DNA from: Owenia fusiformis
Lineage: Eukaryota; Annelida; Polychaeta; Sabellida; Oweniidae
DNA length: 64,000 nt
Assembly (NCBI GenBank): GCA_903813345.2
Contig: CAIIXF020000007.1
Location: 8,561,730-8,625,729 of the forward strand
Direction: 5' to 3'
The notes under the pieces are model-generated. The model ran no database searches. It was not told where the DNA came from and was given only the letters and a program-made list of their open reading frames with translations. Positions 33,855 to 64,000 of this stretch are shown here, piece after piece. Each line of letters starts with the position of its first letter. Position 1 is the stretch's first letter. The translations under genes and the position numbers were made by a program.

Positions 33855-35881
33855 ATGGCAGTGCCACAAAACACATTACAAGAGAAGATCTTACAGACGT
33901 TAGCTCAACAAGATGGTGTGTTGTTTGCAAGGAGAGCTATTGTACACCGTGGTGGATATAATGGAAGGAACATCCTAGGAAAGAACAGTAGTTTTAAGCC
34001 AGAATGTGTAGATGATAGAGGTTATGTTCCCGTAGAGTGGTGGGTCATGTCAAACACAACAGCCGAGAACACAATACCAAAAGAAAATGAGGGTGAGTAC
34101 AATCTGAAAGCACAATCATATTTAGATTGTGCTATATGAAATGTATTTTTATTGAGCCTGGACTTTCTAACTTTGGAGTGATTATAAGTGCCTTCGATCA
34201 CATAAAGTCCTACACTCTAACCATCCATAAATTTAAAAACATGATTGTGTCAAAGATGCAACATCTTGATAGATATCTCCATATTTTATTTTCAATGTGA
34301 TAAAATACAAAATTTAAGGGTATATACAATATTGCCAAATAACATACTTATAACATAGGGGGAGGGGTCTGGGTTCATAAGACAAGGTATGAGAGCGAGG
34401 AGCCTCTATTGGATAAGGTATGACAAGACCCTCAATACATTCTGGAAGTTCATGTGCTTATACATGTACAGACTTTTGATTATTTTCTTCATAGGTTTGA
34501 CAAAACTACTAATTGATGAAGAGGAGATTTTTCTGACTGATGCCCTAGCTGTTGCTGAGCAACAGTTGTTTGGTTGTTATGGCAACAAGTGGCCATTGGT
34601 TAAAGTTTTGGACATTGGAGGAGATCTGGTGGAGACATCTTTTGGGACTAAAGAGGTGCCACCTATCCCATGCCATGTTCACGCAGGTAAGACATATATT
34701 AATGTTAATACTAATACTAATTCAGGATAGAACAATTAAATTCTACTTAGAACCAATTAGCATTTAGTTCTGAGTTTGACCTCACAATTAACCACTGTAT
34801 TCCATTTATTGATGAACTTGTAGGTGAGTTCAAAGATGGAAGATGTTGCATGGAGGATGGTAAATTAGAGGCTTACTTCATGTTACCAGTAGACTGTCCA
34901 CCTTACAATATATACTTAGAAAAGGTATTGTCACATAATATACTGACACTGTAAAAAAGAAATTAAAGTTATTTTATCTTACAATATAATGTATACTTGG
35001 AGAAAGTATTTTGCCTTGTAACACATACCAAAACAAAGTATTTCTAAAGTTAAGACCAAGATAATTCGTAAGAAAATTCTGATTGGGTCTGACTGTAGTT
35101 TGGTTCCAAAAGTCCTTGCTCCCCAGGTTTCAAACAACATGTGGAGACATGGATTCAGAAATGGATTTTCATGTATAAACATTTCCAGGTTATTACAAGA
35201 CTTGGCTTGAAGCCCCAATGTAGCAAAGAGGACCTTGTGAAGGCAATGAAACAGTTTGGTTTTGACGACTCTTGCTACACCTTACTGAGAAGCTACCAGG
35301 TTCAGCCTTACGATTGCTGGACAATTAAACCGGGCATGGTGCACTCACCTGGGCCTTGGCCAACCTTAGAGGTGCAAAGACCCCAGGATGATGCAAACCA
35401 TTTAGCATGGGTACTCGGCTATGTTGAACCAGACCAGATTAAGCGATCAACAAAAAAGTCCCAGGAACAGTTGAGAGGTGTGCCAGATGAACAAGGTCTG
35501 CTAGATCACATGGTTGATTTTGATGGTTCAAGGGATCCAGAATTTGAAAGCAGATGGCGCCATAAGTGTCTTGAAATCTCATCTGGTAAATGGGGGCGAC
35601 ACTTTCAAATATTTTTTGGAGAGTTTTATGGAGAAGGAATGGAGATCAATTCAAATTCTCATTGGGTTCGGGAATTAGATGAACGACCATATATGGCAAT
35701 TGTATGGAGTGGAAGCGGGAAAATTCAAGGCAAGTTGGTAAGTGCAGAAATTGATGGCACTCAAGAAATACTAGTGACACCTGGTACAAAAGTGACAATT
35801 GAGAATACAGATGCCGTGAATAAACTGTTGGTTTATGCAGTTTTCCCAATCAGAAAAGATGCAACAAACAGCTTAAACTAA
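33855..35881 (+). CDS. Cupin protein, class I mannose-6-phosphate isomerase-like
   Basis: Exons 33855-34092, 34495-34686, 34824-34924 and 35189-35881 join in phase to 407 residues. The metal-ligand set typical of this cupin group is visible: H140 and H142 in PCHVHAGEF, E159 in GKLEAYF and H229 in PGMVHSPGPWP. A second beta-rich domain ends the protein (DERPYMAIVWSGSGKIQG to VYAVFPIRK). No signal peptide or organelle signal is clear. I infer a cytosolic metal-dependent sugar-phosphate isomerase or a relative; the exact substrate cannot be read, and the sequence is closer to bacterial-type cupins than to canonical animal MPI as I recall them. AATAAA near 36411 could be the poly(A) signal. The last exon is tandemly duplicated downstream. 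Confidence 0.85.
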
Positions 35882-37652
35882 TTAATGATGAAACATGTGA
35901 TTACCATCAACATTATGCTTCAAATTTTGTTGAATATTTGAAATTATTGAGAATAATAGAATAACTATTGTTAGGGTCTCTTTAATTGTAAAAATGTTGA
36001 TAGAATACTCTTGTACACTTTTAAGTTGATACCCTAGCCCTTATTTTCCATGGTTTAGTCTGAGTGTAAAATATAAAAATTTGTCAACCAATGTGAAATA
36101 TATAGGAATATTACTGGCAGTTTGGTTAATATGATTTTACTGTCAATGGGCAATGATAAAAATTCCCTTTTGTTTCAATGGATCTTTTCCACTTTGCTCA
36201 AAAATCCAAGATATATAATAATAGCCACCATGAAAGTACTAATTTACCCAGCATGCCATAAACCTAATCAGATATTGTCAAAAAAAAAAAAATTATTATT
36301 ATCTGTAAAAATTTCAATTTGAATGGATGAGCAGTTATCCTGGCTGCACAGACGCATGCATGTCCAACATCACCAGATGACAATATAAAACTTGACAATA
36401 TAAAAAGTGCAATAAAGTCTAACATATTTAATAACAATGTAAAAACAAACTATGATATAAATGTAAGATCATATATTATACCCTTCCTTTTATTCCCTTA
36501 TAAATTATGAAAATACATCATCCAAAAATAGATGAATCTAAGGATACAGCTTTTATAACTCATTCTCTGCTTATTGCTGGGATTTGACGTCCTTATCACA
36601 GTTTGCACATAAAATATTGCTTCAAAATGATATGTATCACAACATCTTCACGATTTACAATATGGGTCATTTCAAAATATCAAATACATTCATCCACATT
36701 ATTTGGACTGATCTATCATAAATGGCATTATAATAATTTTTAATCAATTTAAAACCAAACAATTCTTTTTCACATTTTCAAGTATTGCAGAGATTCAACA
36801 ATATTGATAGTTTCTAAAAACATAAGAAGTCTAAACCATTGAACACTTAGCAACAATATCATAAAAATAATGTTAGACAGTGAATTCTATAGTAACATGC
36901 ACTTTAGAGTTCAAATGCACTCATAGACTAAGGAAATAGATACCTTTGCAGGTACTTCTATATGAATAATTTGATATGTAAAATCCTCTCAAATCACATG
37001 ATGCAAATACTCGTATAAATACTTTTCTTAAATACCTAGATTTCCCATAAATAGTCACTCAAAGCACACAAAAAAGAAAGCAGCAACTATGAAAGCATCA
37101 ATCAAATAATTATTATCTTATTTGCGTAAATTCAATTGCATATTATGTGAGATACAGTTTGATCACCATTGGTATATGGAGCTTTCACATTGGACCTAAT
37201 GGCTTGTTGCCATGACGGCAGGATAAGCATTGACAGGATCTAATTGGCCCGTCAAGATTGGAGCTTTATTGTGAATTCAAAATGTAAAACAAAGTCGATC
37301 AATCTTCAAAGGATCGGACCTAAATTTTGATATCCGATTTCAAATCTGAAAGTGATTTACTATAAATTATTATTATGAACATAATATCAAGTTGGTTTAA
37401 CAATGCTAGATATCAGAGAACCATATACCAAGGGTGTTCACACTGAAATATGATTTGAGTATACTCAGGGACATAAACACCTATAAAATGACCATTTTAT
37501 AATATTTTTAAAAAATCTTAGTAATTGTGTCACTGGGGCCCATTTTTGGTACAATCATACTTGTGATTTCTAGAAATTTTGTACTCTTAAATGGACAATG
37601 ACAGGTATGACAAGTACAACCTAATCAAAAATTACAAAAGTTGTTCCAAAAA
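35196..37652 (+). repeat. Tandem duplication, copy 1 (contains last exon of cupin gene)
   Basis: A segment of about 2.46 kb starts seven bases inside the last exon of the cupin gene and runs about 1.77 kb past its stop. The same sequence recurs immediately at 37660. The offset is 2464 at the left edge and 2465 at the right edge. The indels I noticed are an A run of 13 against 12 and one extra TA in copy 2. Confidence 0.95.
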
Positions 37653-37659
37653 GACAAGA

Positions 37660-40117
37660 CAAGACTTGGCTTGAAGCCCCAATGTAGCAAAGAGGACCTT
37701 GTGAAGGCAATGAAACAGTTTGGTTTTGACGACTCTTGCTACACCTTACTGAGAAGCTACCAGGTTCAGCCTTACGATTGCTGGACAATTAAACCGGGCA
37801 TGGTGCACTCACCTGGGCCTTGGCCAACCTTAGAGGTGCAAAGACCCCAGGATGATGCAAACCATTTAGCATGGGTACTCGGCTATGTTGAACCAGACCA
37901 GATTAAGCGATCAACAAAAAAGTCCCAGGAACAGTTGAGAGGTGTGCCAGATGAACAAGGTCTGCTAGATCACATGGTTGATTTTGATGGTTCAAGGGAT
38001 CCAGAATTTGAAAGCAGATGGCGCCATAAGTGTCTTGAAATCTCATCTGGTAAATGGGGGCGACACTTTCAAATATTTTTTGGAGAGTTTTATGGAGAAG
38101 GAATGGAGATCAATTCAAATTCTCATTGGGTTCGGGAATTAGATGAACGACCATATATGGCAATTGTATGGAGTGGAAGCGGGAAAATTCAAGGCAAGTT
38201 GGTAAGTGCAGAAATTGATGGCACTCAAGAAATACTAGTGACACCTGGTACAAAAGTGACAATTGAGAATACAGATGCCGTGAATAAACTGTTGGTTTAT
38301 GCAGTTTTCCCAATCAGAAAAGATGCAACAAACAGCTTAAACTAATTAATGATGAAACATGTGATTACCATCAACATTATGCTTCAAATTTTGTTGAATA
38401 TTTGAAATTATTGAGAATAATAGAATAACTATTGTTAGGGTCTCTTTAATTGTAAAAATGTTGATAGAATACTCTTGTACACTTTTAAGTTGATACCCTA
38501 GCCCTTATTTTCCATGGTTTAGTCTGAGTGTAAAATATAAAAATTTGTCAACCAATGTGAAATATATAGGAATATTACTGGCAGTTTGGTTAATATGATT
38601 TTACTGTCAATGGGCAATGATAAAAATTCCCTTTTGTTTCAATGGATCTTTTCCACTTTGCTCAAAAATCCAAGATATATAATAATAGCCACCATGAAAG
38701 TACTAATTTACCCAGCATGCCATAAACCTAATCAGATATTGTCAAAAAAAAAAAATTATTATTATCTGTAAAAATTTCAATTTGAATGGATGAGCAGTTA
38801 TCCTGGCTGCACAGACGCATGCATGTCCAACATCACCAGATGACAATATAAAACTTGACAATATAAAAAGTGCAATAAAGTCTAACATATTTAATAACAA
38901 TGTAAAAACAAACTATGATATAAATGTAAGATCATATATTATACCCTTCCTTTTATTCCCTTATAAATTATGAAAATACATCATCCAAAAATAGATGAAT
39001 CTAAGGATACAGCTTTTATAACTCATTCTCTGCTTATTGCTGGGATTTGACGTCCTTATCACAGTTTGCACATAAAATATTGCTTCAAAATGATATGTAT
39101 CACAACATCTTCACGATTTACAATATGGGTCATTTCAAAATATCAAATACATTCATCCACATTATTTGGACTGATCTATCATAAATGGCATTATAATAAT
39201 TTTTAATCAATTTAAAACCAAACAATTCTTTTTCACATTTTCAAGTATTGCAGAGATTCAACAATATTGATAGTTTCTAAAAACATAAGAAGTCTAAACC
39301 ATTGAACACTTAGCAACAATATCATAAAAATAATGTTAGACAGTGAATTCTATATAGTAACATGCACTTTAGAGTTCAAATGCACTCATAGACTAAGGAA
39401 ATAGATACCTTTGCAGGTACTTCTATATGAATAATTTGATATGTAAAATCCTCTCAAATCACATGATGCAAATACTCGTATAAATACTTTTCTTAAATAC
39501 CTAGATTTCCCATAAATAGTCACTCAAAGCACACAAAAAAGAAAGCAGCAACTATGAAAGCATCAATCAAATAATTATTATCTTATTTGCGTAAATTCAA
39601 TTGCATATTATGTGAGATACAGTTTGATCACCATTGGTATATGGAGCTTTCACATTGGACCTAATGGCTTGTTGCCATGACGGCAGGATAAGCATTGACA
39701 GGATCTAATTGGCCCGTCAAGATTGGAGCTTTATTGTGAATTCAAAATGTAAAACAAAGTCGATCAATCTTCAAAGGATCGGACCTAAATTTTGATATCC
39801 GATTTCAAATCTGAAAGTGATTTACTATAAATTATTATTATGAACATAATATCAAGTTGGTTTAACAATGCTAGATATCAGAGAACCATATACCAAGGGT
39901 GTTCACACTGAAATATGATTTGAGTATACTCAGGGACATAAACACCTATAAAATGACCATTTTATAATATTTTTAAAAAATCTTAGTAATTGTGTCACTG
40001 GGGCCCATTTTTGGTACAATCATACTTGTGATTTCTAGAAATTTTGTACTCTTAAATGGACAATGACAGGTATGACAAGTACAACCTAATCAAAAATTAC
40101 AAAAGTTGTTCCAAAAA
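37660..40117 (+). pseudogene. Tandem duplication, copy 2: orphan last exon of the cupin gene
   Basis: The frame over 37660-38345 encodes the same 229 residues as the end of the cupin gene, with no difference seen. The copy has neither the splice acceptor nor the upstream exons, because the breakpoint lies inside the exon. The open frame extends left only to a TTG, with no ATG before the shared part, so a functional protein would need a new promoter and start or exon skipping from copy 1. It also carries the duplicated 3' flank with its AATAAA near 38876. The absence of substitutions means a very recent event, a gene-conversion product or an assembly artefact. Confidence 0.85.
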
Positions 40118-40764: not shown

Positions 40765-43700
40765 CTATGGTCTGGCGAGAGATGGGGGAAATAACCCCAT
40801 TTCCACATAATCATCCAATATCTAAAACAAAACAAAACAGGTCATTCAAAAAGTAAGCTCGCCAATTTTGCCCTTAAACACTTATTTTTCAATATCTATT
40901 CCTCAAGTTCTATTCTTCTATTTTTCAATACGTATTCCTACATTTTGCTATACATCAACATTCAAAAATGTCAAATGAATATGTTAACTTTTTTTAAAAT
41001 AATTATTGAGCTGAACAAACAGTATTTGGATGGTTTACACTGTATGCCCTAAGAAAATACATGATTTAAATGTAATTTCGATATGAACTCATATGATTTT
41101 GAATTAAAGTCCATAATTTCAGATTGATAAAATAATTGATAAAATGTGATATTCTGAGAGCAACGGGGAAACATTTAGAGAACACAAATAAAGTGTAAGT
41201 ATACTTCATTATAGTGTTGTGTTGAAAAGTGTCATGTTGTGAAGCCAGGTTCTTAAAATTGGTGAGGCAAGTTTAAAAAGGTGAGGCAAAGTCTATCTGT
41301 AAATTTTGACAAGGCAGCTGCCTTTACCTGGTTTATGCCCATATATGGTAGTGTCACATAGCGGTGTTTTGTACTTAAACCACAAATGTAAGTGGTAAAG
41401 ATCTTATATAGACGTATATACTGACCTCCTTTAATGAGTCGATGGTTAAGCTTGGCCTATCATAGCAAAAGCCTGTAGATTCTATCTTGGTGCCGTCCAT
41501 GTGTATATGCTTGTCATAGAGCAGCTCCTAAATGCAACAAACAAGAAGCTGAAGGATAATGAGGCATATCAATAAGATTTTGAACGCTGTTAGATATGTT
41601 ATAGTTTGTTGAACATGGCAGAAACTGTTGGAAATATTATTCACTGTTGGACATATGGGTGTTGTTGAACATTTCTTACACTGTTTTATATATTTTGATT
41701 GGTCAGGCAAGTCATAAACCTAATACTTGTAAAATGACCCATACTCAATTATAATTCAGAAATATCCTATCAAAAAATAAATAAAAAACAACTTATTTTA
41801 ACTATTTGATGTCTATTTGTACATAAACATGTTGAACTGGGAACATTTAGAACACTGAACTCAGTTGGTAACCTGTGTATGTACCCTCTATACTGGATAG
41901 GTTGTTCCTTGTAGACAGGTGTTACTTACAGATAGGGCTCATCAACATGTAGGTCAATGGGATATAGTTGTTCTCATAACTGTACCATATAGAGAGGTAT
42001 ATTCCTTACAGATAGAGGTGTTCCATTAGACAGGTTTTGATACAGAACACCACCTACTAATAACTGACCTGATCTAAGTAAGGATTAAGAGGGGTGTTTA
42101 TTATGCCATCCTTCTGACAGGCCTCAGACCATGGCATCATGTGCTTTTCATTAATATCTTCAGCAACACTTTTAAAGTTGAGCTGCAAGTGAAGAAATTA
42201 CTATCAATAGTAATCAATAGTTAATAAATAGTACTATTGTAGTGTTTTCCCGAGATTTTTATACAAATGTGGCTGCATAATTCTTATTTTCAAAATTGAC
42301 ATCATTCTCAGTTTCATGTGTATTTGTACTAAAGTGTTTTCCAAAGATTTTTTTACATACATCACATGTATATGGGTGCATAATTCTTATTTTCAAAATT
42401 GACACCATAGTTGTTCATAACAAGCTTTTCTCATTTTCATTCTATTTAATTTCATAAAATCAGCAAGTCCCATCAATGCTAATTCATCTCAAAACATATA
42501 TTACTGTATATATTAAAGACCCCATGCTAAGTTTGAAAATATATCTTTATCAATCAAACATCATAAACTTAATCAGAGCCTTTAAGTAACTTACTTTTGC
42601 AAGAGAAGACATGGCTGTCCCCACATAGTCATGGTTTATGTCAAATACCTCAGATACAAGCTCACTTATTTTGCCTTGAGCTGAAAAGGTTTTTACATAA
42701 TACACTCACAATATTGATGTAGGGGGGGGGGGGGGGGTTGAACAGGGAGATCATGTTACATAAAATAATGTTGGATTAAACAAGTAAGCTATCTATGCAG
42801 CCAATATAATTTAGTGAAAGAGCTTTGTATAAATCAATCTACAGTATTTGTAGTTCCATTTATAGTCCCGGCACCTTCAAATAAAAGATTTAGTAAAAAT
42901 TTTGATATAATTTACAATGAATGTCAGTACAAATACTATTGCTGGACTGGTCACAAAAAATCCTTACTTGTATCTCCTTTATCTACTAGGTGGTATATCT
43001 CTCCCTTGTTACCATGGTGACAAAGATGCAATATTGCACGACAGACATCATATACATGTACTGTGTTCATCTTGAGACTGCCTGTCCATAACATCTAAGA
43101 AATTAAATTATTTAATATATGAGTTTATGTGATTTCTGTTTCTGGATGTACACCTGTATATTATAATGAAGATGAAATTATTATAATGATGATGTACTAT
43201 GAAGTTATATAATGGTTCTTTCTGTATATCGTGTTTATACTCGAGTGAGTATATGATATATCCACAAGTGAGCATAGCGTTGATTCGAACACAATCAAAA
43301 CAATTAAAACCATAAAAACCATAATAAAAACATCCCATAGCCAACTCAATAATGCCGATGTTGATCTCGAACCATTTATGACGTGGCTTGATTCTAGCAA
43401 ATCATGCCGGAACCATTTATGACGTCACTTGATTCTAGGAAATCATGAAAATTTTCATGATTTTGTTATTCATTAGTTCCCAGAATGCACTTCTACAGTG
43501 GTATAGGCTGGAGTTTATACGGAGGAGTTGTATACGATGACGATATACCACTCTCCACTGTATATCGTTGTTATATACCCATGTTATACAACTGTAATTG
43601 GACTTAGATTGGTATAATACAGGCTATACCATATCTAACACCAAAATTGAAGCAACAGAGTACAATAGACAAATATTTGCAAAATGCCAAAATGTAAACA

Positions 43701-46700
43701 TTCGTGTCATGTTGCCTTATGTTTGCAGATGCGAAAGATGATATATTGAGGTCAGAATAAAAGCAGAAAAATATTAAAGTCATCTTTTAGATTCAGTCTT
43801 CTCATTAGTTTATCATATTCCATATATCTGAATGAACAGTTTTAGTCGTGTGACTCTCGGGAATGAGCCAATTCCAGATGGGTAGAGTCTCAAATGGATG
43901 ATTTTCTATATAACTAGGACTAAAATCACATAGATTCAGCCAAATTGATCATTATGCTACACATGGATACCTCAAACAGACTTTTTACATACCTTCATTT
44001 TCTCTTTTATTTGTTTGTATACTGCACCAATTATAAGTCTTGGAGCTGAAAATAGACCAAATACATAAATACATACACGTCGTATGATGAACCGAAAATA
44101 TTACAGCAGTATCATCCTGGCTCCCTCGATATCCACTTACATGTGGTCATCAAAGAATTTCATGTAAAGCTTTCGCTGGTAACATATTTTAGGAAGCCTG
44201 AGAAATCGAGAAATGATGTTTACTATTTTTACATTTACTATATTGTTTTCAGGTGTTCAAACCAATGTAAGAACCAAAATAAAATAAAATTATTTGCAAG
44301 GGGTTTACATTCATCTTTTCTCACAATTTTGTATTAAATTGTATAAATCAGAACACTGTGTCTCTCATTCGAACCTCACAGAATTTAAACTAAATAATGC
44401 ATACATTGCTCTCTTAAACAAATAACATGTACTGTCACATTGCAAAAAATTCATTTAAAAAATAGAACAACTTTGGAATTCTTACAAATAACAAAATAAT
44501 GGAAGTTATACAAGGTGTACATACCATATATATGTAGCTATACAATGTACTTACTAAGCCCCCTTCTGTCCCCTATGCCATAATGTATTGCTGGTCTAAC
44601 AATGCAGTAATCTAAGTCTGGTATTGTCTCTAGCTCTACCTCCACGAGTCTCTTATGTTTGGCAAGGTTGGTCCAGGGCTCCACTTTGTGGTCTTCCTTT
44701 ACTGCAGTCTGAAAAATGCAGGAAAGAAAACTTAATTGAAGATATGTTAAAAACAGAGTTAAATACATGGAGAAAACATGAATATCTGAATAGAAATGTA
44801 AACATGAAGAAACACTTCTGAAATCATATCTGGTCACAAGTACAAAGCACACATACAGACACTTTTGAACACATGTAGAAAACACTTATGAACACAAGTA
44901 CAAAGCATACATACAGACACTTTTGAACACATGTAGGAAACACATATGAACACAAGTACAAAGCACACATACAGACACTTTTGAACACATGTAGAAAACA
45001 CTTTTGAACATAAGTACAAAGCACACATACAGACACTTTTGAACACATGTAGAAAACACTTATGAACACAAGTACAAAGCATACATACAGACACTTTTGA
45101 ACACATGTAGAAAACACTTTTGAACACAAGTACAAAGCACACATACAGACACTTTTGAACACATGTAGAAAACACTTATGAACACAAGTACACAAAACAT
45201 GTGTAGAAAACACATATGAACACAAGTACACAAAACATGTGTAGAAAACATTTCTGAACACAAGTAAAAAACACTTATGAACACAAGTACAAAAAACATG
45301 TAGAAAACATTTCTGAACATATGTAGAAAACACTTATGAACACAAGTAAAAAACACTTATGAACACAAAAACAAAATACATGCAGAAAATACTTTTGAAC
45401 ACATGTAGAAAACACTTCAGAAAAAAGTAGAAAACACCATCTGATTATTAGTATAATAGTAAAACACATGTAAAAAATACTTTTGTTGCATAATGACAGT
45501 AGTTAAATGAGCATGACATGTATTTACCTTACTGCTAGAAAACATTTGGCCACTAGAAATCTCAATATATCGGCTACATTTGTGTGCTGCTGCAGCTCTG
45601 GCACAATTCATACTAAGCTGTAATATACCTTCCTTGTACACCTGCAATGTAACAATACTAAGCTGTAATATACCTTCCTTGTACACCTGCAATGTAACAA
45701 TACTAAGTTGAATATACCTTCCTTGTACACCTGCAATGTAACAATACTAAGCTGTAATATACCTTCCTTGTACACCTGCAATGTAACAATACTAAGCTGT
45801 AATATATCTTCCTTGTACACCTGCAATGTAACAATACTAAGCTGTAATATATCTTCCTTGTACACCTGCAATGTAACAATACTAAGCTGTAATATACCTT
45901 CCTTGTACACCTGCAATGTAACAATACTAAGCTGTAATATATCTTCCTTGTACACCTGCAATGTAACAATACTAAGCTTTAATATACCTTCCTTGTACAC
46001 CTGCAATGTAACAATACTAAGCTGTACTATATCTTCCTTGTACACCTGCAATGTAACAATACTAAGCTGTAATATACCTTCCTTGTACACCTGCAATGTA
46101 ACAATACTAAGTTGATGACCATATAACAATGCAATGTAACAATACTAAGCTGTAATATACCTTCCTCGTACACCTGCAATGTAACAACACTAAGTTGATG
46201 ATCATATAACAATGCAATGTAACAATACTAAGCTGTAATATACCTTCCTTGTACACCTGCAATGTAACAATACTAAGCTGTACTATATCTTCCTTGTACA
46301 CCTGCAATGTAACAATACTAAGCTGTACTATACCTTCCTTGTACACCTGCAATGTAACAATACTAAGCTGTAATATATCTTCCTTGTACACCTGCAATGT
46401 AACAATACTAAGCTGTAATATATCTTCCTTGTACACCTGCAATGTAACAATACTAAGCTGTAATATATCTTCCTTGTACACCTGCAATGTAACAATACTA
46501 AGCTGTAATATACCTTCCTTGTACACCTGCAATGTAACAATACTAAGCTGTAATATACCTTCCTTGTACACCTGCAATGTAACAATACTAAGTTGATGAT
46601 CATATAACAATGCAATGTAACAATACTAAGCTGTAATATACCTTCCTTGTACACCTGCAATGTAACAATACTAAGTTGAATATACCTTCCTTGTACACCT

Positions 46701-49700
46701 GCAATGTAACAATACTAAGTTGATGACCATATAACAATGCAATGTAACAATACTAAGCTGTAATATACCTTCCTTGTACACCTGCAATGTAACAATACTA
46801 AGTTGAATATACCTTCCTTGTACACCTGCAATGTAACAATACTAAGCTGTAATATATCTTCCTTGTACACCTGCAATGTAACAATACTAAGCTGTAATAT
46901 ATCTTCCTTGTACACCTGCAATGTAACAATACTAAGTTGAATATACCTTCCTTGTACACCTGCAATGTAACAATACTAAGCTGTAATATACCTTCCGTGT
47001 ACACCTGCAATGTAACAATACTAAGCTGTAATATACCTTCCTTGTACACCTGCAATGTAACAATACTAAGCTGTAATATACCTTCCTTGTACACCTGCAA
47101 TGTAACAATACTAAGCTGTAATATACCTTCCTTGTACACCTGCAATGTAACAATACTAAGCTGTAATATACCTTCCTTGTACACCTGCAATGTAACAATA
47201 CTAAGCTGTAATATATCTTCCTTGTACACCTGCAATGTAACAATACTAAGCTGTAATATATCTTCCTTGTACACCTGCAATGTAACAATACTAAGTTGAA
47301 TATACCTTCCTTGTACACCTGCAATGTAACAATACTAAGCTGTAATATATCTTCCTTGTACACCTGCAATGTAACAATACTAAGCTGTAATATACCTTCC
47401 TTGTACACCTGCAATGTAACAATACTAAGCTGTAATATATCTTCCTTGTACACCTGCAATGTAACAATACTAAGCTGTAATATACCTTAATTGTACACCT
47501 GCAATGTAACTTGTGGATGATGATATAACAATGCAATTTAACTATAAAAGAAAGAACAATGCAAGTTACCTGTAATGTAAGTTATGATTATCATATGATA
47601 ACAATGCAAAGTTAGTTCAAATAAATACCAACAACTATAACAATGCAAAATTGCTGAGACTTTGAAAAGTTTTAACTAACAGAGATGTTCCACTTTACAG
47701 GTTTCATACATACATATAAATAATGATTGGTAACAAACTTTTAAATAGTAATGCAAAAAATAATGATTGTTATGTTACATTGTGATAAATAAAAAGTGCT
47801 TAGAATTTCTACAAAAAATGTTTTGAAGCACTATATATGTATTTCCTAATGTTTTAACCAATACCAAAAATATACATACTCATGTACACATTAAAGAAAG
47901 ATAAAAAACTTAAAAATTAATTTGAAAGAAAGGGTTTCAAATAGAGGAAAGAATAAATAGATATATAGAATGATGAGAAAACAAGGAAATTGTAAAATAT
48001 ATACAATAAAATTGAGAGTTCACAAAGGAGTATGTAGTTTATTGTATAATAGACAAAAATACAACAAACAAACAGTTTTCACAACAGTACACTTTATACA
48101 TTTACAATTCAATTCACTAAAAAATTTACTTTAAATGATTTTTAACAGGAAACCCCACACCAACATAGTGTTTAAGATAAAGAACATTTACAACTTCTTG
48201 CAAATCCATCAATTCAAAGATTTTCAAATTTCTAAATTGTATATCAGTATTTGAATCTTAAAACAGAACTGACTTCTAAAGTTATATGTACAATTTCAAA
48301 AGATTGTCAGTTGTGGAGGAGGTTAACTGTTGAAAATGAAGTGAACAGAAAATCAACATTTTTCAAATTTCATTTTTGAGAGTGATAAACCAATTTCCAA
48401 CCCAAAAATCAATTTAATTATATATAAACTGATGATATTTGGATGGACACGTAAACACTTACACTAGAAAAAATAAAATAAAAACAACACCAAACTAACA
48501 ATACTACACAAATGGAGTGACCCTCACTCACTCAATTACTCACACAGAGTGAATTCACCCTATGCAGACAGAGCCTGTGGGAAATATTGGGTGCGGAGCA
48601 AATGAGCGGAGGGTGCGGAGCTAACGGTTATTTTTGAATTTAAATTTGGGATATATCTGAAACTAAGCCGTTTTGGGACTTCAAATATACCAAGATATGT
48701 GTATTTGACACCAAATATCAATACAATTGTGAAAATAGTAGCGCAATTCATTCTATAGCGACGCAGTGTGCCTTAAACCTTTCCCAGACCTATATATTTT
48801 GAAATTATCCTTTTTATACTGAGTCCCCAGCATTCATAAAAAATGGTGTTCAAGGTGCACTATCTATACAAATTATTTTTGCATCTTGGAAGCCAGGCAG
48901 TATCTGTGTGATTTTATAAAAATTCGGAAATTTTTTCAGATATGAGCCCCCTCTAAATATTGGGTGCGGAGCAGCTCCATAAACGTAGCTCCGCACCCAA
49001 TATTTAGAGGGGGCTCATATCTGAAAAAATTTCCGAATTTTTATAAAATAACACAGATACTGCCTGGCTTCCAAGATGCAAAAATAATTTGCATGGGTAG
49101 TGTATCTTGAACACCATTTTTTATGAATGCTGGGGACGCAGTATTAAAAGGATAGTCTCAAAATATATAGGTCTGGGAAATGTTTAAGGCATACTGCGTC
49201 GCTATAAAATGAATTGCACTACTATTTTCACAATTTTATTGATATTTGGTGTCAAATACACATATCTTGGTATATTTGAAGTCCCAAAACGGCTTAGTTT
49301 CAGAAATATCCCAATTTTAAATTCAAAAATGACCGTTAGCTCCGCACCCTCCGCTCATTTGCGCCGCACCCAATATTTCCCACAGGCTCTGTCTGCATAG
49401 GGTGGAATTTAAAAGTGAAAGTGAAAATGCAATTGGGAAGGAGTACTCACAGCACTTATTTCGGACTTGAGGCAAAATTGGAAAAAATATATTTCCGTTG
49501 ACATAATGTATTCTTTAATTTAAATTTCAATTGGTTCAAATTGTCATATCATTATTTCTATTTTTCTTATTTTATCAAAAATTCAGGGTGCAAACAGGGT
49601 GGTATATTATGTATTGTGTGAACATATTGATTTATAAATGAAAGTGTGATTATAATGCACATACATTAGAGGACCTCAATAAAGTTCCAATTATAACATT

Positions 49701-52700
49701 GAATTATTGGGTTAATAATATTAAAATAAGGAATTTCAATGTTACTTAATCAAAAATTAATAAAAATTGTAAGAAAATAGACATAATGCCTCGTACAGAC
49801 TCGATAGTGTAAAATCTACTACAATCGACTTTGAGAAATAAAAATGTTGATTTAAAACTTACTGATTCCATTTGTCCATATTTGGTTTCCATGGCACAGT
49901 TGATAACAAACTGGAATCCCCCTCCCTCATCCTCAAACACTTTCTCTACAGCTTCTAAATACATTAATTAAACTTTGCGATTATTCAGATTTAAAAGCTT
50001 TATTGTATGTTGAACAGACTTTCAAGTGAAAACCCATGTTCTTTATATATATAAATGTGAATAAACTATTAGACTATATAATAAGACTATTCTCAGTTTG
50101 GAGAACGAAGTTCATCACTCTAATTGAGTGTTACCCCTGCTTCGGACAAAGGATTGGTATCGATATGGAGAATTGAATTCAACAATATTTTTCTCTTAAA
50201 CCAATCATTGAAAACATTCTATAAAAAACACGATATTTTATGATAAAATGAACTTCTTTTTCCAAATCGAGACTTGTATTTTATCGAATCGGTCTACTTC
50301 ACTTTACCTCTGCTTCGGACAAATTTGATATTTTTACATCTTGTAGATTTAAATGACCTCTTTTGAATATTTATAATTTAATTTGGGTGATATTTCTAAT
50401 ATTTTTCATGAAAAACATTAGGCTCATATACAGGGTGGGCCAAAAAAAAACAATACCCAAGTTCAAATCAGGATAAAAATAGTTACGTTCAATATGATAC
50501 ATTGACTTATGTATCATTTTAAAGGTAATACATTTTCAAACAATTTGGTATATAACACTATGACATAAATTCAATAGCAAAGGTGTATTATACTTATTTG
50601 GGAGGCTGGGTCGCTATTTAAGGTCTCTAGATTTTAGGGAGAAAACAGTAAATCTGTGGAATTATGTAAACTTTTTATTCATAGAATATCATTTTGTTAG
50701 GTGAATACATGCATGTGTATTTGCATTAATGTGTGACTAAACTTATTGTTTATGAATTTCAGTATTGTTTAATAACACTTTACAATTTATTTATTAAACA
50801 ATTGCTTAATATGCCCCCCCCCCCCTATGCATCAACAATAAGCCTCAAGCGGTAGGGCCATCTATCAACAGATTTCTGTTGCAATACATTCCAGCAATTA
50901 GGATTCCGCGGTTCAGCTAATCACTACTTTTTATTGGATGCTTGTGATTGTACACCATTTCCTGTACCTATTACCATATATGAAGATGGCTCCATGTATG
51001 GTAATCCACCACATTAGCATCGGGGCTTCTGGGTCATGTGGGTGGCCAAGCATCTGGATCAGTCAAATTGACAACTTGTTACTGAAGGAATACCAATGTC
51101 ACCTTTGATCTATGGGACAAGGCAACGTCTTGTTGAAAAATAACCCCCCCCACCACATATACGTTTTATGTCTTTTAACATACCTATTTTGAGTACTTAT
51201 TGATAGTAAACAATACAAAAAAATCATAAACAATAAGTTAAGTCACAAATGATGCAAATATACAAGCTTGTATTCACCTAACAAAATGATATTCCATGAA
51301 GAAAAAGTTTACATAATTCCACAGATTTACTGTTTTCTCCCTAAAATCTAGAGACCTTAAATAGCGACCCAGCCTCCCAAATAAGTATGATACACCTTTA
51401 CTATTGACTTTATGTCATAGTCAGTGTTCGCGCTGGCCATTAAAATTTCTGAGTCCCAGGGACGCAACCCATTTGAAAAATTTGAGTCCCCATCTAATTT
51501 TTTTGCGTCCCTCTTATTTCTTCACAAAGTTCAAGAAATATTGTGAAAGTGAAAATAAAGTGGGCGATAATAGAGTGCTTACACTATAATGGGATAAAAA
51601 TGACATATATTGTAATTTGATGCATCCTCCCGATAAATATCTATCACTGGGTCCTTTTTACACAATTCTTAAGTAATGTTATACCAAAATAGTCCGAAAT
51701 GAATAAAGGAAATGCTCAAATTAAGAGTTTTGTTTTCACATTTTACAAACCTGCGATCTTGAAGGTCATGTCAAGGTCGTGAACTTTTGCTTCTTTTTAT
51801 TAACATTTCTCCTTATTCTGAAGACTTTTAGATGAAAAACCTCGATCTATCATTAAACATTTATCTTGATGTATAACATTAGATCATAATGGTTTCTAGT
51901 TTATTTATTTATTTATGTTTATTTTATCCACCAGAATTGGTGTGTTTACATGTGTTATATAAAATATTACATAAGGGGTTGAGATTATTATGTTACATAC
52001 AATAATGAAAAAAACAATTAAAATGTTTATGTACAACCAATCCCTGGTGTTGACGGACGTCAGGCTACCGCGTTGACGCCGTCAAGTTACTACTTTCTGT
52101 TACATGCAATAAGAAAAACAAGTTCTCCACCTAATATTTGCCGTTGACGGACGCCAGGCTTCTAGTGGAAATGATAAAGATAATCGTGAAAAACAATCGT
52201 TTCAATTTGTGGGGAACCACAGGGAATTTCTGCAATATTGTATGTTTTGATCTTCCATTTCGATTGCGGCATTTTCCGGAATATATCGGAACCAATCAAA
52301 ATCCATGTCTCACACTGGAAACCCTGTTAATCTTGGGTAGTCATGAAAGCCAATCAGATTTGTCGATATAAATATACCTGGATCATTGCTCGTATATCAA
52401 GGTAGTGAGTTTGAAAATCTTGATGAAAATCATGTTTCACCGCTACTGTGCTGCAGTAAAAGTTATCTTGAAGCAGTTTATAATTTTTGTGTCCTAGGGA
52501 CGTAAGTTGATTTTGATTTTTACGTCCAACCATCTGAAATTTCCGTAAAAATGGCAAAAAAACGGCGTCAACGCAAACACTGCATAGTGTTATATACCAA
52601 ATTGTTTGAAAATGTATTACCTTTAAAATGATATATAAGTCAATGTACCATATTGAACGTAACTATTTTTATCCTGATTTAAAGTTGGGTATTGGTTTTT

Positions 52701-54103
52701 TTTGGCCCACCCTGTATGTCCAGTAAAATGCAATTGTCATGTAATGGAGATGTACATTATACCTGTATACCAATTATTCTGGAGAAGGACTTTTAAATAA
52801 ATATTTCATGAAAAATCAAGTTTATGGTAAAAATGCAGTCCAAATAAAAAAATGGCCTATATATCATTATAATACAGTATTTATACTTTTATTACTATTC
52901 AGTGGGTGGGATTAAAGAAGGTTTGTGATTTTTATAAAACCGGATATATGTTTGCCTTACTTGAATTAATCAGGTTTGCATGTTTAAATTCCACCTTTGA
53001 GAAAGATTCTTTGTGTTCTTTATTCAACCATGCCATGGGTGGCATGACCTTGTCAACTATACGAATCTACAAACAAAAAGAAACTATTTCATAAAAACAC
53101 AGTATCCTTTTATTACAAGTATTACTTAAAATATTGATTTAAATTCAAAATACAGTTTCCCACATGAGAGTTATCCCCACAGCATTCTTCAAATATTGAT
53201 TCAAATTCAAAATACAGTTTCCCACATGAGAGTTATCCCCACAGCATTCTTCAAATATTGATTCAAATTCAAAATACAGTTTCCCACATGAAAGTTATCC
53301 CCACAGCATTCTTCTTTTATCCAAAGTCCATTTTCCTTCAAATTTCACATCCAAGATGTTTATAAAATGATAGCCCCCTTCCGATGCTACTTTATCAAAC
53401 AATATTCTACAGAACATAGAAGTGAATAAATATTGTTCGGCAGTCCTTAGATCACTGTCAATGCCTGCTTTATGGGCCCCTGCCTCATAAATTCGTGATC
53501 ATCAAATGACTTAAAATCTTTGTTTACATAACTTATCTTAAAATAAAATGCTTTTACTTACCTTTGATGTTAGGTTATTGCTGACTAAATAGTGGACAAG
53601 GTTTCGACCAATGAAACCAGTACCTATAATATGTAAAATAATTAAATTTAGTGGCCGATTGTTACAGGCAAGAATGTTACTAGGTATACAAATGTGACAA
53701 AAAGCAGTGGCTATAACGATATCAAGGCATTAACTTGACAAAATTTGTATTACTTTTATTATCCAATGTTTCACAAACTTAACACAGCACCTTTAAGTTT
53801 AATAATTACCGGTTTACTCTAAATTGCTTAGTGTCTGCTTAAATTTGGGGATTTACCCATTTAAGTTTAAATATTCATCAATAACCAGATTATCATATTA
53901 TCTAATGTTGTTTTGATATGTTTTCCCCAAAAATCCCAGAATTATAACAGCAACCAATGTTCTGAAATGTTTAATTCATCAAAGTTAATAGTAATACCAC
54001 AAACTTAAATCAATCTACAGTATCTAATTTAGAGATACTAGAGATATAAAAAAAATTCTATACTGATACCTCCAAGTATGAGCACTCTTGGTTTTTCCTC
54101 CAT
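40765..54103 (-). CDS. Extended SDR family NAD(P)-dependent dehydrogenase/epimerase-like protein, twelve exons
   Basis: Exons in transcript order: 54103-54070, 53623-53562, 53066-52961, 49954-49863, 45641-45528, 44708-44555, 44045-43993, 43094-42968, 42680-42595, 42182-42069, 41527-41426 and 40821-40765, joining in phase to 366 residues. GGTGFIG at 11-17 is the Rossmann glycine motif, followed by IRIVDKV. FVINCAMETKYGQ, RYIEISSGQMFSS and CIVRPAIHYGIGDRRGL are typical extended-SDR segments, and TVHVYDVCRAILHL is the NAD-epimerase HVxDV region. The usual YxxxK is not obvious: the lysine is present in PWTNLAK (147-153) but the tyrosine position reads W or T. The substrate is unknown. The fit to the family is strong throughout. 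Intron 4 carries a remarkable acceptor minisatellite. Confidence 0.92.
42721..42738. repeat. Poly-G run
   Basis: A run of about 16 G in intron 8 of the SDR gene; a likely G-quadruplex or sequencing-difficult site. Confidence 0.9.
44824..45425. repeat. About 60-bp minisatellite in SDR intron 5
   Basis: Units contain CACAAGTACAAAGCACACAT, ACAGACACTTTTGAACACAT and GTAGAAAACACTTATGAACA in order. The first half has regular 60-bp units and the second half has shortened ones. Several minus-strand frames (repeating FSTCVQKCLYVCFVLVF) stay open because the period is divisible by three. No exon edge is included, so this array differs from the one to its right. Confidence 0.9.
45611..47516. repeat. 45-bp minisatellite built from the intron 4/exon 5 acceptor of the SDR gene
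   Basis: About 42 units of 45 bp; most contain CCTTCCTTGTACACCTGCAA. On the gene strand a unit is TTGTTACATTGCAG (end of intron) followed by the first 30 bases of exon 5 (encoding VYKEGILQLS). Unit 1 is the real exon edge at 45641. Unit 2 is a perfect in-frame copy. Several units are 44 bp (TTGAAT for CTGTAAT), and a few are 38-bp forms lacking the acceptor. The 3' splice site is therefore repeated about 40 times in series. Confidence 0.95.
48556..49404. mobile_element. 849-bp foldback transposon in SDR intron 4
   Basis: The arms are about 415 bp and nearly perfectly inverted. They start CACCCTATGCAGACAGAGCC and end with its inverse GGCTCTGTCTGCATAGGGTG. GAATT flanks both sides (48551-48555 and 49405-49409). 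The centre near 48980 is a short spacer. The mirror-image 63-codon frames in the two arms are the same sequence read twice and not genes. No transposase is present. Confidence 0.9.
50431..52714. mobile_element. Mariner-type foldback MITE, split by a nested insertion
   Basis: The left end CAGGGTGGGCCAAAAAAAAA and the inverse right end (TTTTTTTTGGCCCACCCTG) are flanked by TA at 50429-50430 and 52715-52716. Inner segments 50580-50740 and 51250-51410 are also inverted copies, so the element was a long hairpin of about 1.1 kb before another element entered its right arm at 51421. It lies in SDR intron 3. Confidence 0.88.
51422..52582. mobile_element. 1.16-kb non-autonomous transposon nested in the mariner-type MITE
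   Basis: The termini CAGTGTTCGCGC and GCGTCAACGCAAACACTG are imperfect inverted repeats. CATAGT flanks both sides (51416-51421 and 52583-52588), and removing the insert restores the palindrome of the host element. Inside are GAGTCCC-GGGACG-type motifs near both ends. No transposase frame. The 6-bp duplication and CAG-CTG ends are shared with the element at 57262. Confidence 0.85.
53150..53315. repeat. 62-bp tandem repeat, about 2.6 copies
   Basis: Units contain CAAATATTGATTCAAATTCA, AAATACAGTTTCCCACATGA and AGTTATCCCCACAGCATTCT. The copies are nearly identical. It lies in SDR intron 2, about 85 bases upstream of the exon 3 acceptor in the transcript, and does not include it. Confidence 0.9.
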
Positions 54104-61300: not shown

Positions 61301-64000
61301 GACCCTTTAATTGGTATCATTGATTGTAAATCAGGCCCGTAGCCTGCTCGAACCCATCAAACCCCCCCTGGCCAAAAAATCTTTCAAAATGACAAAATCA
61401 TGCAGTTTTTTTTTCCTTTCTGAGCACTTTTTAAGTGATTTTGGCCATTTTGGATCAAGATTGTCAAAAGTGACCCCCCCCTATAATTTTTCAAAAAGTG
61501 AACCCCCCCTTGGCAAATGCTGGCTATGGGCCTGTAAATCACTTAAAAAAAGTGTGAACTCCCTTATGGCTTATTGCTATGTTTACAGGTGACACAGTTC
61601 AAAGAGGAATACAAAACTCAAGCAGAGAAACTTGTGTCAGAAGTGTTACCCAAGAAAGTGATTGAACTCAACGACATTCTGAATGTAAGTATAGCAATAA
61701 CATGAACATTGACTTACTAAAGTGTCAGGCCTCTTTGTCATTATTTGGGTGAAATATCATTTGGTTGATTTTTTCTCTTGATTATTACATTGATTGCATG
61801 TTGACATTTTGTATGCTCACAACATGCGTTTAATTTTTCTCTCCATCTGTTTTTTCCATATAACTGATATCTCATGTATTAAAGCAGAACGTGTATTATC
61901 TATACAGAGAGGTTTTGACATATGATAGGTGATCGTGAGTGTACATGTATTTCAGTTGAAAGATTTTGATGCTGCACGTGTGACAGATATTAACACAGAT
62001 CTTAACATACCAGTTCCAGAGGTGGTCTTAAACAATGATGCAGATGGGGTAAGTTACAGCTTAAGAAGTTAACTTTTGAGGTGGCTCCATAAGCCCCTGG
62101 CCAAAATTCTTTTCTAAATCAAGCCAGTTTTCATCATCTGAGCACTTTCAAGTGATTTTGGGCCAAAATTTTTCAATTTGAACTCCATAGTCTTTTTAAA
62201 AAAAACTGAACCCCCTTGGCAAAAGCTGGCTATGGGCCTGGAGCGAAACTAGTAACTATACATGTACAATATTTTCAGCCCCAACCAAAAAAGCGAAAGC
62301 TGGACCTTATGGATGGGTTATCCGAGTTTCCAGGTATATAATCAGTTACTTTTGGGTTAATTTTCTTGTTATTAATTCTGAACCTACACTTACTTGAAAA
62401 AATGCTTGCCAAGCTGTTGAGTAGCAGTACCTCTTAAATTGTTCCAAAGATCCCATATCGTCTTGACTTCACTCCTTAGATGTGATTTTGTATAATGATT
62501 TCAAATATAATACCGGTTTGACTTCGTTTAGAATATTTAATAATAAAAATCAAGATTATGTTGTATCTAGTCTATTGACTTGTTTTTCCACATATCACCA
62601 TCCTTAATGAATTAATAATTAAATTGCAGGTTGTCGAATACTAGGATTACCAAATGGCACATCTCCCTCAAACAAGCACATCTCATCTTTGCTAGATCAA
62701 GTCAAGCCATACATTAGAGACCTCATAGATCATGCAAATATGGTAAGTTTAACATTAGAGACCTCATAGATCATGCAAATATGGTAAGCTTAACATTAGA
62801 GACCTCATAGATCATGCAAATATGGTAAGCTTAACATTAGAGACCTCATAGATCATGCAAATATGGTAAGCTTAACATTAGAGACCTCATAGATCATGCA
62901 AATATGGTAAGCTTAACATTAGAGACCTCATAGATCATGCAAATATGGCTAGCTTAACATAAGAGACCTTATAGATCATGCAAATATGGTAAGCTTAACA
63001 TTAGAGACCTATTAGATCATGCAAATATGGTAAGCTTAACATTAGAGACCTCTTAGATCATGCAAATATGGTAGGATTTACATTAGACATCTTATAGATC
63101 ATGAATATAGTAAGCTTAACATTAGAGACCTTAAAGATCATGCAAATATGGTAAGCTTAACATTAGAGACCTCATAGATCATGCAAATATGGTAAGCTTA
63201 ACATTAGAGACCTTATAGAGCATGCAAATATGGTAAGCTTAACATTAGAGACCTCACAGATCATGCAAATATGGTAGGAGTAACATTAGACATCTTATAG
63301 ATCATGCAAATATGATAGGATTAACATTAGAGACCTTATGGATAATGCAAATATTGTAAGCTTAACATTAGAGACCTTATAGATCATGCAAATATGGTAA
63401 GCTTAACATTAGAGACCTCATAGATCATGCAAATATGGTAAGCCTAACATAGATCATGGATATGGCAGTTAGTGTATAAGAGACCTCAAAGATCATGCAA
63501 ATAAAGTTTTGATGAAATTTTGATTTTAAACATAGTAAATGTACTAGAATAAGACAGTTAGGTGCAATAATCCAGTAATCACTATATATATAATTGGAGT
63601 TTTCATTTCAGATCCGTATGTGGATAGCTTTCCTAATGCCCAAGATTGAAGATGGCAACAATTTTGGTGTGTCTATACAGGTATGTTACTGCCAAGAGGA
63701 ATTTATTAATAAAATAGACTTAGGAAATATATAATGTATCTAAGGAGTGGGATGGGTATTTTTTTAGTGCATACAGAATATCCACCTTTAATTCACTCCA
63801 TCATTTGGGGAGTTCAGTTTACCTGCATATTATGTTAAAATCTCATTCCCTCTAAATAAATCATATATCTAATACCTCTCAGTGGATATATCTCATATAT
63901 ACTGTACATGTTTTATACATACAAACATTACTTCTATATTCTTAGGAAGACAGTATGTCAGAAGCACGACAGGTTGAAAGTGAGGCTGCATCATATCTAG
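58322..64000 (+). CDS. PSME3: Proteasome activator PA28-gamma-like subunit (5' part, truncated by window)
   Basis: PA28-gamma forms a heptameric ring that caps the 20S proteasome in the nucleus. Exons: 58322-58345, 61589-61684, 61956-62048, 62279-62333, 62630-62742, 63612-63680 and 63946 to beyond 64000, in phase, giving 168 residues so far. QFKEEYKTQAEKLVSEVLPK and PKKVIELND are the N-terminal PA28 helix. INTDLNIPVPEVVL matches the conserved linker. PKKRKL at 74-79 is a monopartite nuclear localisation signal, as expected of the gamma type. LLDQVKPYIRDLIDHANM, IEDGNNFGVSIQ and VESEAASYL are the C-terminal PA28 domain; IEDGNNFGVSIQ matches human PSME3. The last third lies outside. Exon 1 codes only eight residues and is the least certain; intron 5 carries a donor minisatellite. 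Confidence 0.93.
59535..59670. repeat. Foldback with TGCATTCTGGGAG arms
   Basis: GGATTGACTCCCAGAATGCA and its inverse TGCATTCTGGGAGCCAATCC bracket about 85 bases. It lies in intron 1 of the PSME3-like gene. CCCAGAATGCA also resembles the core of a ZNF143/Staf site, but the foldback explains its presence. Confidence 0.7.
59910..60312. repeat. About 400-bp foldback in PSME3-like intron 1
   Basis: The left arm from CTAGAGTCCATTTCACTGCT to CAAATGTCATTC-type sequence is repeated inverted, ending AGTGAAATGGACTCTAG. The arms are about 135 bp and nearly identical, with a loop of about 130 bp. Short frames over the loop are incidental. Confidence 0.88.
60685..60840. repeat. Short foldback in PSME3-like intron 1
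   Basis: GGCTACTTCGTCAGGCTATTTCGACC and GGTTATTTCGACATTT-type segments at the left match inverse forms (GGTCGAAATAGCCC, ATGACGAAGTAACC) at the right, with some mispairs. Confidence 0.55.
61330..62240. repeat. Two copies of a dispersed repeat around exons 2 and 3
   Basis: Segments 61360-61535 and 62085-62242 share GAGCACTTT-AAGTGATTTTGG, AAAAGTGAACCCCC-type and CTTGGCAAA-GCTGGCTATGG motifs, both ending GGCTATGGGCCTG. They are diverged direct copies of one element, in introns 1 and 3. Confidence 0.7.
62711..63495. repeat. 41-bp minisatellite built from the exon 5 donor of the PSME3-like gene
   Basis: About 18-19 units of ATTAGAGACCTCATAGATCA, TGCAAATATG, GTAAGCTTAAC. Unit 1 is the real exon end (encoding IRDLIDHANM) and its donor ATATG|GTAAGT at 62742/62743. 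The later units copy the last 30-odd coding bases plus the donor into intron 5. About 13 units keep GGTAAG; others read GGCTAG, GGTAGG, AGTAAG, GATAGG or TGTAAG. Confidence 0.95.

Follow-up and report, generated by a model that had tools for sequence, protein, structure and literature searches.

A minisatellite of tandem acceptor sites at an exon edge of an SDR gene in Owenia fusiformis, and further splice-edge arrays in the same genome

We analysed a 64,000-nt stretch of the genome of the annelid Owenia fusiformis (contig CAIIXF020000007.1, positions 8,561,730 to 8,625,729; hereafter the window), in which a gene of the SDR/NAD-dependent epimerase family carries a minisatellite lying across the edge between intron 4 and exon 5. 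The array has 42 units, mostly of 45 bp, with 39 TTGCAG acceptors in series at the end of intron 4, which bears out a preliminary description of the window that had proposed about 40 tandem 3' splice sites in an SDR gene. A 1.9-kb array of such identity is far beyond chance. It belongs, as a large example, to a known kind of repeat, the mirage minisatellites of lancelets; the surprise is that there are several more in the same genome. The exon-adjacent acceptor is probably the one in use, with the remaining copies tolerated as intron.

The SDR gene spans 40765..54103 on the minus strand. Its 12 exons, when joined, give an uninterrupted frame of 366 residues, which matches Pfam Epimerase (7.8e-25, 88.1 bits) and is assigned to its family on that basis. 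Exon 4 (49863..49954, minus strand, donor TCA/GTAAGT; splice junctions are marked by a slash throughout) is spliced to exon 5 (45528..45641, minus strand, 114 nt, phase 0/0), the initial 30-32 nt of which are array unit 1. Joining the two exons at 45641 gives a protein that aligns without a gap at the junction to the SDR 8rdi, and with a three-residue gap there to 6bi4. A genome search with the 366-residue protein returned 11 matches, all inside the SDR locus; hence, no retrocopy of the mature mRNA was found. Likewise, neither protein nor DNA searches of the assembly found an allelic copy of the gene or of the array from which array length could be compared, and a DNA search with four array units gave 12 overlapping matches, all at the SDR locus.

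Tandem Repeats Finder places the array at 45610-47510 (minus strand), as 45 bp x 42 copies. Each unit combines a 30-32-nt copy of the start of exon 5 (VYKEGILQLS) with 13-15 nt of intron. Thus, the unit does span the exon edge, as had been claimed, and the division into 15 intron and 30 exon bases given in the preliminary description could be moved by up to two bases. Unit 1 overlaps exon 5 itself, and all others lie in intron 4; 14 of the 42 are identical to exon 5 over the first 30 nt. The units have three lengths: 33 are of 45 bp, five of 44 bp and four of 38 bp. Read on the minus strand, the array contains 43 CATTGCAN sites, 39 of which end in AG (CATTGCAG) and are possible acceptors, the other four reading CATTGCAT; the latter are found where a 38-bp variant unit adjoins. 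One such variant (TGTTATATGGTCATCAACTTAG...) lies at 46091..46128 (minus strand), and its upstream neighbour ends in CATTGCAT, not CATTGCAG; three further 38-bp units, on the same strand, end at 46211, 46609 and 46736. Counting from the exon, the AG of the first acceptor is at 45642..45643, that of the second at 45687..45688, and that of the most distal, which has a different upstream context, at 47499..47500 (all minus strand). We considered an origin of the array through an 8-bp microhomology (CTTAGTAT, shared by the exon and the 38-bp variants), and rejected it as circular, because these variants may be chimeric, joining ordinary units to the distal flank; that flank has a sequence of its own, without CTTAGTAT.

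We scored splice sites with matrices built from 16 acceptors (intron 4 excluded) and 16 donors from the introns of the SDR gene and of a PSME3-like gene in the window; the matrices are small, and the scores are accordingly rough. The array forms the ladder of equal choices that had been proposed: 37 of the 39 acceptors are identical over 23 nt (20 intron and 3 exon bases) and score 10.05, within the leave-one-out range of the 16 authentic acceptors (2.97-12.22). One of the remaining two scores 11.18 and the most distal 5.3, and elsewhere in intron 4 the best AG reaches 7.96. The array also repeats a donor-like sequence, AAG/GTATAT, which would make a plausible donor, with a score of 7.49 against 2.15-11.46 for the 16 authentic donors; intron 3 of the PSME3-like gene starts CAG/GTATAT, by the exon boundaries called in this analysis. 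The sequence had been described as lying 14 bases into each unit; it lies 13 bases in, and is present in 23 of the 38 long units, with A for G in 14 of the 38. It also occurs inside exon 5 itself.

Next to the strength of the acceptors stands the effect of each on the reading frame. We assembled in-silico transcripts in which exons 1-4 were joined to exon 5 at each of its 39 possible starts, followed by exons 6-12. The exon-adjacent acceptor (45641) yields the normal protein. Acceptor 2 (45686) adds exactly 15 residues, VYKEGILQLSIVTLQ, in frame and without a stop, just as the preliminary description had it. The next unit is of 44 bp (45687..45730, minus strand) and breaks the frame, so that the frame shift predicted for the acceptors beyond it is confirmed; four further 44-bp units lie at acceptors 46698, 46825, 46959 and 47318. 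Only acceptors 1 and 2 keep the reading frame, a point absent from the preliminary description; for the remaining 37 of 39, an early stop falls 719-2598 nt ahead of the last junction. Skipping of exon 5 would leave the frame open, with 328 residues. Against Pfam Epimerase the normal protein scores 88.1 bits, the form with 15 extra residues 81.4 and the exon-5-skipped form 69.3.

Other features of the SDR locus are recorded here in their own right. In the alignment to 6bi4, the protein has Leu at the place of the catalytic Tyr of YxxxK (window 44555-44708, minus strand), and is possibly an atypical or inactive SDR. Intron 4 also holds a long palindrome (48552-49409), with a 94% match to its own reverse complement over 860 positions, which looks like a foldback element. 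A separate array in intron 5 (44835-45437, minus strand), about 90 bp from exon 5, has a 58-bp core in six copies with a decayed continuation, and includes no splice edge.

The window contains a second splice-edge array, at a donor. The PSME3-like gene (Pfam PA28_C, 8.6e-24) has an exon at 62630..62742 on the plus strand, the end of which is unit 1 of an array of 41 bp x 18 at 62711..63450 (plus strand); the next exon starts at 63612. The 41-bp unit consists of the last 32 nt of the exon and 9 nt of intron, and most copies of the edge read ATG/GTAAGY. Across the 18 units, 13 read GTAAGC at the donor, one, the exon's own and working donor, reads GTAAGT, two read GTAGGA, and two have no GT. The protein aligns to PSME3 (7yqd) without a gap across the junction of the array-bearing exon.

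We asked how often such arrays occur elsewhere by surveying protein kinase exons. A genome search with PF00069 gave 144 matches, from which 30 loci had been cut mostly around long exons; the survey sample itself comprises 52 further 3-kb loci (156 kb) around shorter exon matches, chosen blind to repeats, with one place excluded because it already looked tandem. The survey counts 126 kinase exon matches, five array copies having been dropped beforehand. GC content was 34.85% across the 92 loci fetched, compared with 33.0% in the window. With a threshold of a unit of at least 20 bp and at least 2.8 copies, we identified 22 arrays; 13 were read base by base, and the other nine were set aside solely for overlapping no exon match. 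Among loci L011-L040, the arrays of L013, L019, L029, L030 and some others were listed only.

Six of the 22 arrays, each read base by base, span an exon edge. Five do so at an acceptor: L042 (2326-3001, 88 bp x 7.7), L045 (2051-2348, 98 bp x 3.0), L046 (846-1174 and 1387-1527, 86 bp x 3.8, with a two-copy donor repeat as well), L078 (1578-1822, 51 bp x 4.8) and L080 (59-525, 113 bp x 4.1). The sixth, L062 (1306-1516, 54 bp x 3.9), does so at a donor, with GTAAGT kept in two units. We take the kinases concerned to be PKA-, PKN-, PAK-, MKK-, CDKL- and AKT-like. Among arrays close to exons, no splice edge was found on reading in L053, L075, L079 or the array at 2745 in L046, nor in L022, L025, L033, L035, L038, L060, L063, L067, L076 or L081. 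Separately, an array in L027 (667-1472, minus strand) that begins just past a kinase exon repeats a 23-bp unit, which has a donor-like GTAAGT, 35 times; the copies include no clear exon part, and the array was left out of the edge-spanning count. Thus, splice-edge arrays recur in the O. fusiformis genome, at acceptors and at donors.

Whether they are over-represented at exon edges depends on how many edges are assumed. Random placement of units gives an expectation of 1.56 edge-spanning arrays (P 0.014 for five, 0.003 for six), and pooled random placement one of 1.41 (P 0.010 for five, 0.002 for six). The expectation rises with edges missing from the annotation, and the edge of the L042 array is at an exon absent from the annotated edge list. 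With 1.5 times as many edges, 2.3 would be expected (P 0.02 for six); with twice as many, 3.1 (P 0.07), or 2.8 pooled (P 0.05); and with three times as many, 4.7 (P 0.3). All six edge-spanning arrays come from the first 40 loci, which hold 19 arrays; the last 12 loci, added once that result was known, hold three arrays and none at an edge. Since the expectation depends on the completeness of the annotation, over-representation is only suggested.

The unit lengths of the eight edge arrays (45, 41, 88, 98, 86, 54, 51 and 113) are multiples of three in three cases, as by chance. In L046, the intronic copies are alike among themselves and unlike the real exon, amino-acid positions included (translated by eye). 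These two observations, which bear on the question indirectly, suit intronic copies that stay untranslated.

In the mirage minisatellites of lancelets, an intron-exon edge, whether acceptor or donor, is repeated in tandem, and splice signals are present in many of the units (PMC3087553, PMC3902484). The lancelet cases include BflGb6, BflGb9 and Adh3 (PMC3087553), and TnC and PGBD5 (PMC3902484). Regular splicing is reported for several mirage genes (PMC3087553, PMC3902484), and Adh and TnC are cited as lacking aberrant mRNAs (PMC3902484). The SDR array resembles these minisatellite-like repeats of splice edges in that its unit crosses the exon-intron boundary at 45641, 39 of the 43 sites carry CATTGCAG, and the authentic exon is kept at one end of an intact gene of 12 exons encoding 366 residues; the definition of mirages also includes length differences between alleles, somatic instability and undisturbed mRNA splicing. 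It differs in size, with 39 acceptors compared with six and three repeat units in the two haplotypes of BflGb6 (PMC3087553), and in its host, O. fusiformis rather than a lancelet, where it is known from genomic sequence alone. In lancelet VCBP3, introns hold whole or partial exon copies next to the similar exons, and some of these copies have canonical splice sites (PMC2632668); unlike the SDR array, they are not presented as a minisatellite in the portion of that paper we drew on. In human segmental duplications, minisatellites change the lengths of exons or introns, and those at boundaries may give rise to new introns (PMC2812944); there, units of 30 bp on average are repeated four times in recent paralogs, compared with 42 units in a single-copy gene here. 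A related process is intron gain by tandem duplication of an AG/GT segment, which sets up new splice sites (PMC3087553, PMC4974935); the SDR array multiplies an existing acceptor, and a new intron is not shown. In the literature that we searched on the subject, splice-edge arrays were described only for lancelets and human paralogs. The preliminary description had mentioned neither that the kind is known from lancelets nor that there are more arrays in the window and elsewhere in the genome.

We consider it likely that the SDR array is a mirage-type minisatellite whose exon-adjacent acceptor is the one used. A short segment straddling the exon-intron edge would have been duplicated into a tandem repeat and later enlarged on the intron side, with one copy staying joined to the unique body of exon 5. 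The 45641 acceptor, adjoining that body and the downstream donor, would still define exon 5, and the 38 upstream acceptors would mostly be removed as intron. Occasional use of 45686 would produce a minor protein with 15 extra residues, and use of acceptors farther upstream early-stop transcripts, expected to be degraded. The array would require no function. In favour of this account are the anatomy of the array, the intact gene, the frame kept by acceptors 1 and 2 alone, the other edge-spanning arrays with their unit lengths, the divergent intronic copies in L046, the higher Epimerase score of the normal protein and the lancelet precedents. Several points weigh against this account. The acceptors are not distinguishable by strength, because 37 of 39 have the same splice window. 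In constructs with duplicated sites, the acceptor nearest the upstream donor can be favoured, which would predict distal use and loss of protein. The form with 15 extra residues scores slightly above the normal protein against Pfam GDP_Man_Dehyd (45.1 versus 42.9). Lastly, turnover of the array by local exchange is not established, since neighbouring units are no more alike than in shuffles (nine identical pairs versus 6.5, P 0.17).

The same identity of the acceptors would also suit a working switch, in which the shares of normal, extended and decaying transcripts are set by the length of the array or by regulated choice among the acceptors. The in-frame insert fits such a switch, as do the stops given by 37 of the 39 acceptors, placed in a layout that triggers decay. 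Even so, multiples of three are not favoured among the unit lengths of the eight arrays, and similar lancelet repeats are reported to leave splicing undisturbed (PMC3087553, PMC3902484), and we regard a switch as rather unlikely. The earlier proposal that copy number tunes isoforms is likewise weak: it is possible, and gains no support from the early stops and the unit lengths, while decay-based control through the array acceptors remains compatible with what the sequence predicts. Should the distal acceptors win instead, as nearness to an upstream donor can allow, the array would damage the SDR gene and the allele would yield little protein, most acceptors breaking the frame; the intact state of the other SDR exons, the open reading frame over its whole length and the presence of similar arrays at conserved kinase exons make this quite improbable.

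We give slightly less credence still to the idea that the units serve for recursive splicing or as 13-nt microexons (AG/GTGTACAAGGAAG/GTATAT). It draws on the AAG/GTATAT donor and its presence in most long units. Yet the zero-length site AG/GTGTAC, put forward earlier as a weak recursive site, scores -4.34 behind exon 4, compared with 2.15-11.46 for authentic donors, and an acceptor directly followed by a usable donor, as recursive splicing would need, is not supported; moreover, 13 nt would shift the frame, and the gap of 32 nt from donor to next acceptor is below the length of usual animal introns. An assembly artefact or a wrong copy number is about equally implausible: long identical repeats are prone to error, but these units vary in irregular order and in three lengths, and unrelated arrays of the same kind occur elsewhere in the genome.

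One further feature of the window lies outside these genes. Positions 35195-37652 and 37659-40117 are head-to-tail tandem copies of about 2.46 kb with 99.9% identity; the duplication includes most of a long open frame that matched no Pfam family. In the genome at large, the annelid haemoglobin-linker family has three matches within 15 kb. Genome searches gave no match for COX1, the GFP family or molluscan haemocyanin, the last two results being uninformative. Twelve contigs of 32-62 Mb make up 95.8% of the assembly; together with the GC contents given above, this speaks against a lancelet, since lancelets have about 41% GC and 19-20 chromosomes.

Faithful joining of exon 5 would mean that the spliceosome picks out a single acceptor from 39, and the choice would have to be positional, because 37 of them share the same 23 nt. 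The SDR array would then be a natural test of exon definition against first-come scanning, one that ordinary cDNA reads could answer without a construct. Gene-prediction and short-read pipelines may misplace exon edges at arrays of this kind. Their repeated occurrence, in kinase genes as well as a proteasome-activator gene, suggests that a mutational process acts at exon edges, one from which new introns could arise. More speculatively, and with considerable doubt, exon-intron edges may be preferred birthplaces of minisatellites in this animal: several per cent of exons might carry copies of their own splice sites, a step tied to splicing or transcription might duplicate the DNA at the edge, and exon definition might make the resulting arrays cheap to carry.

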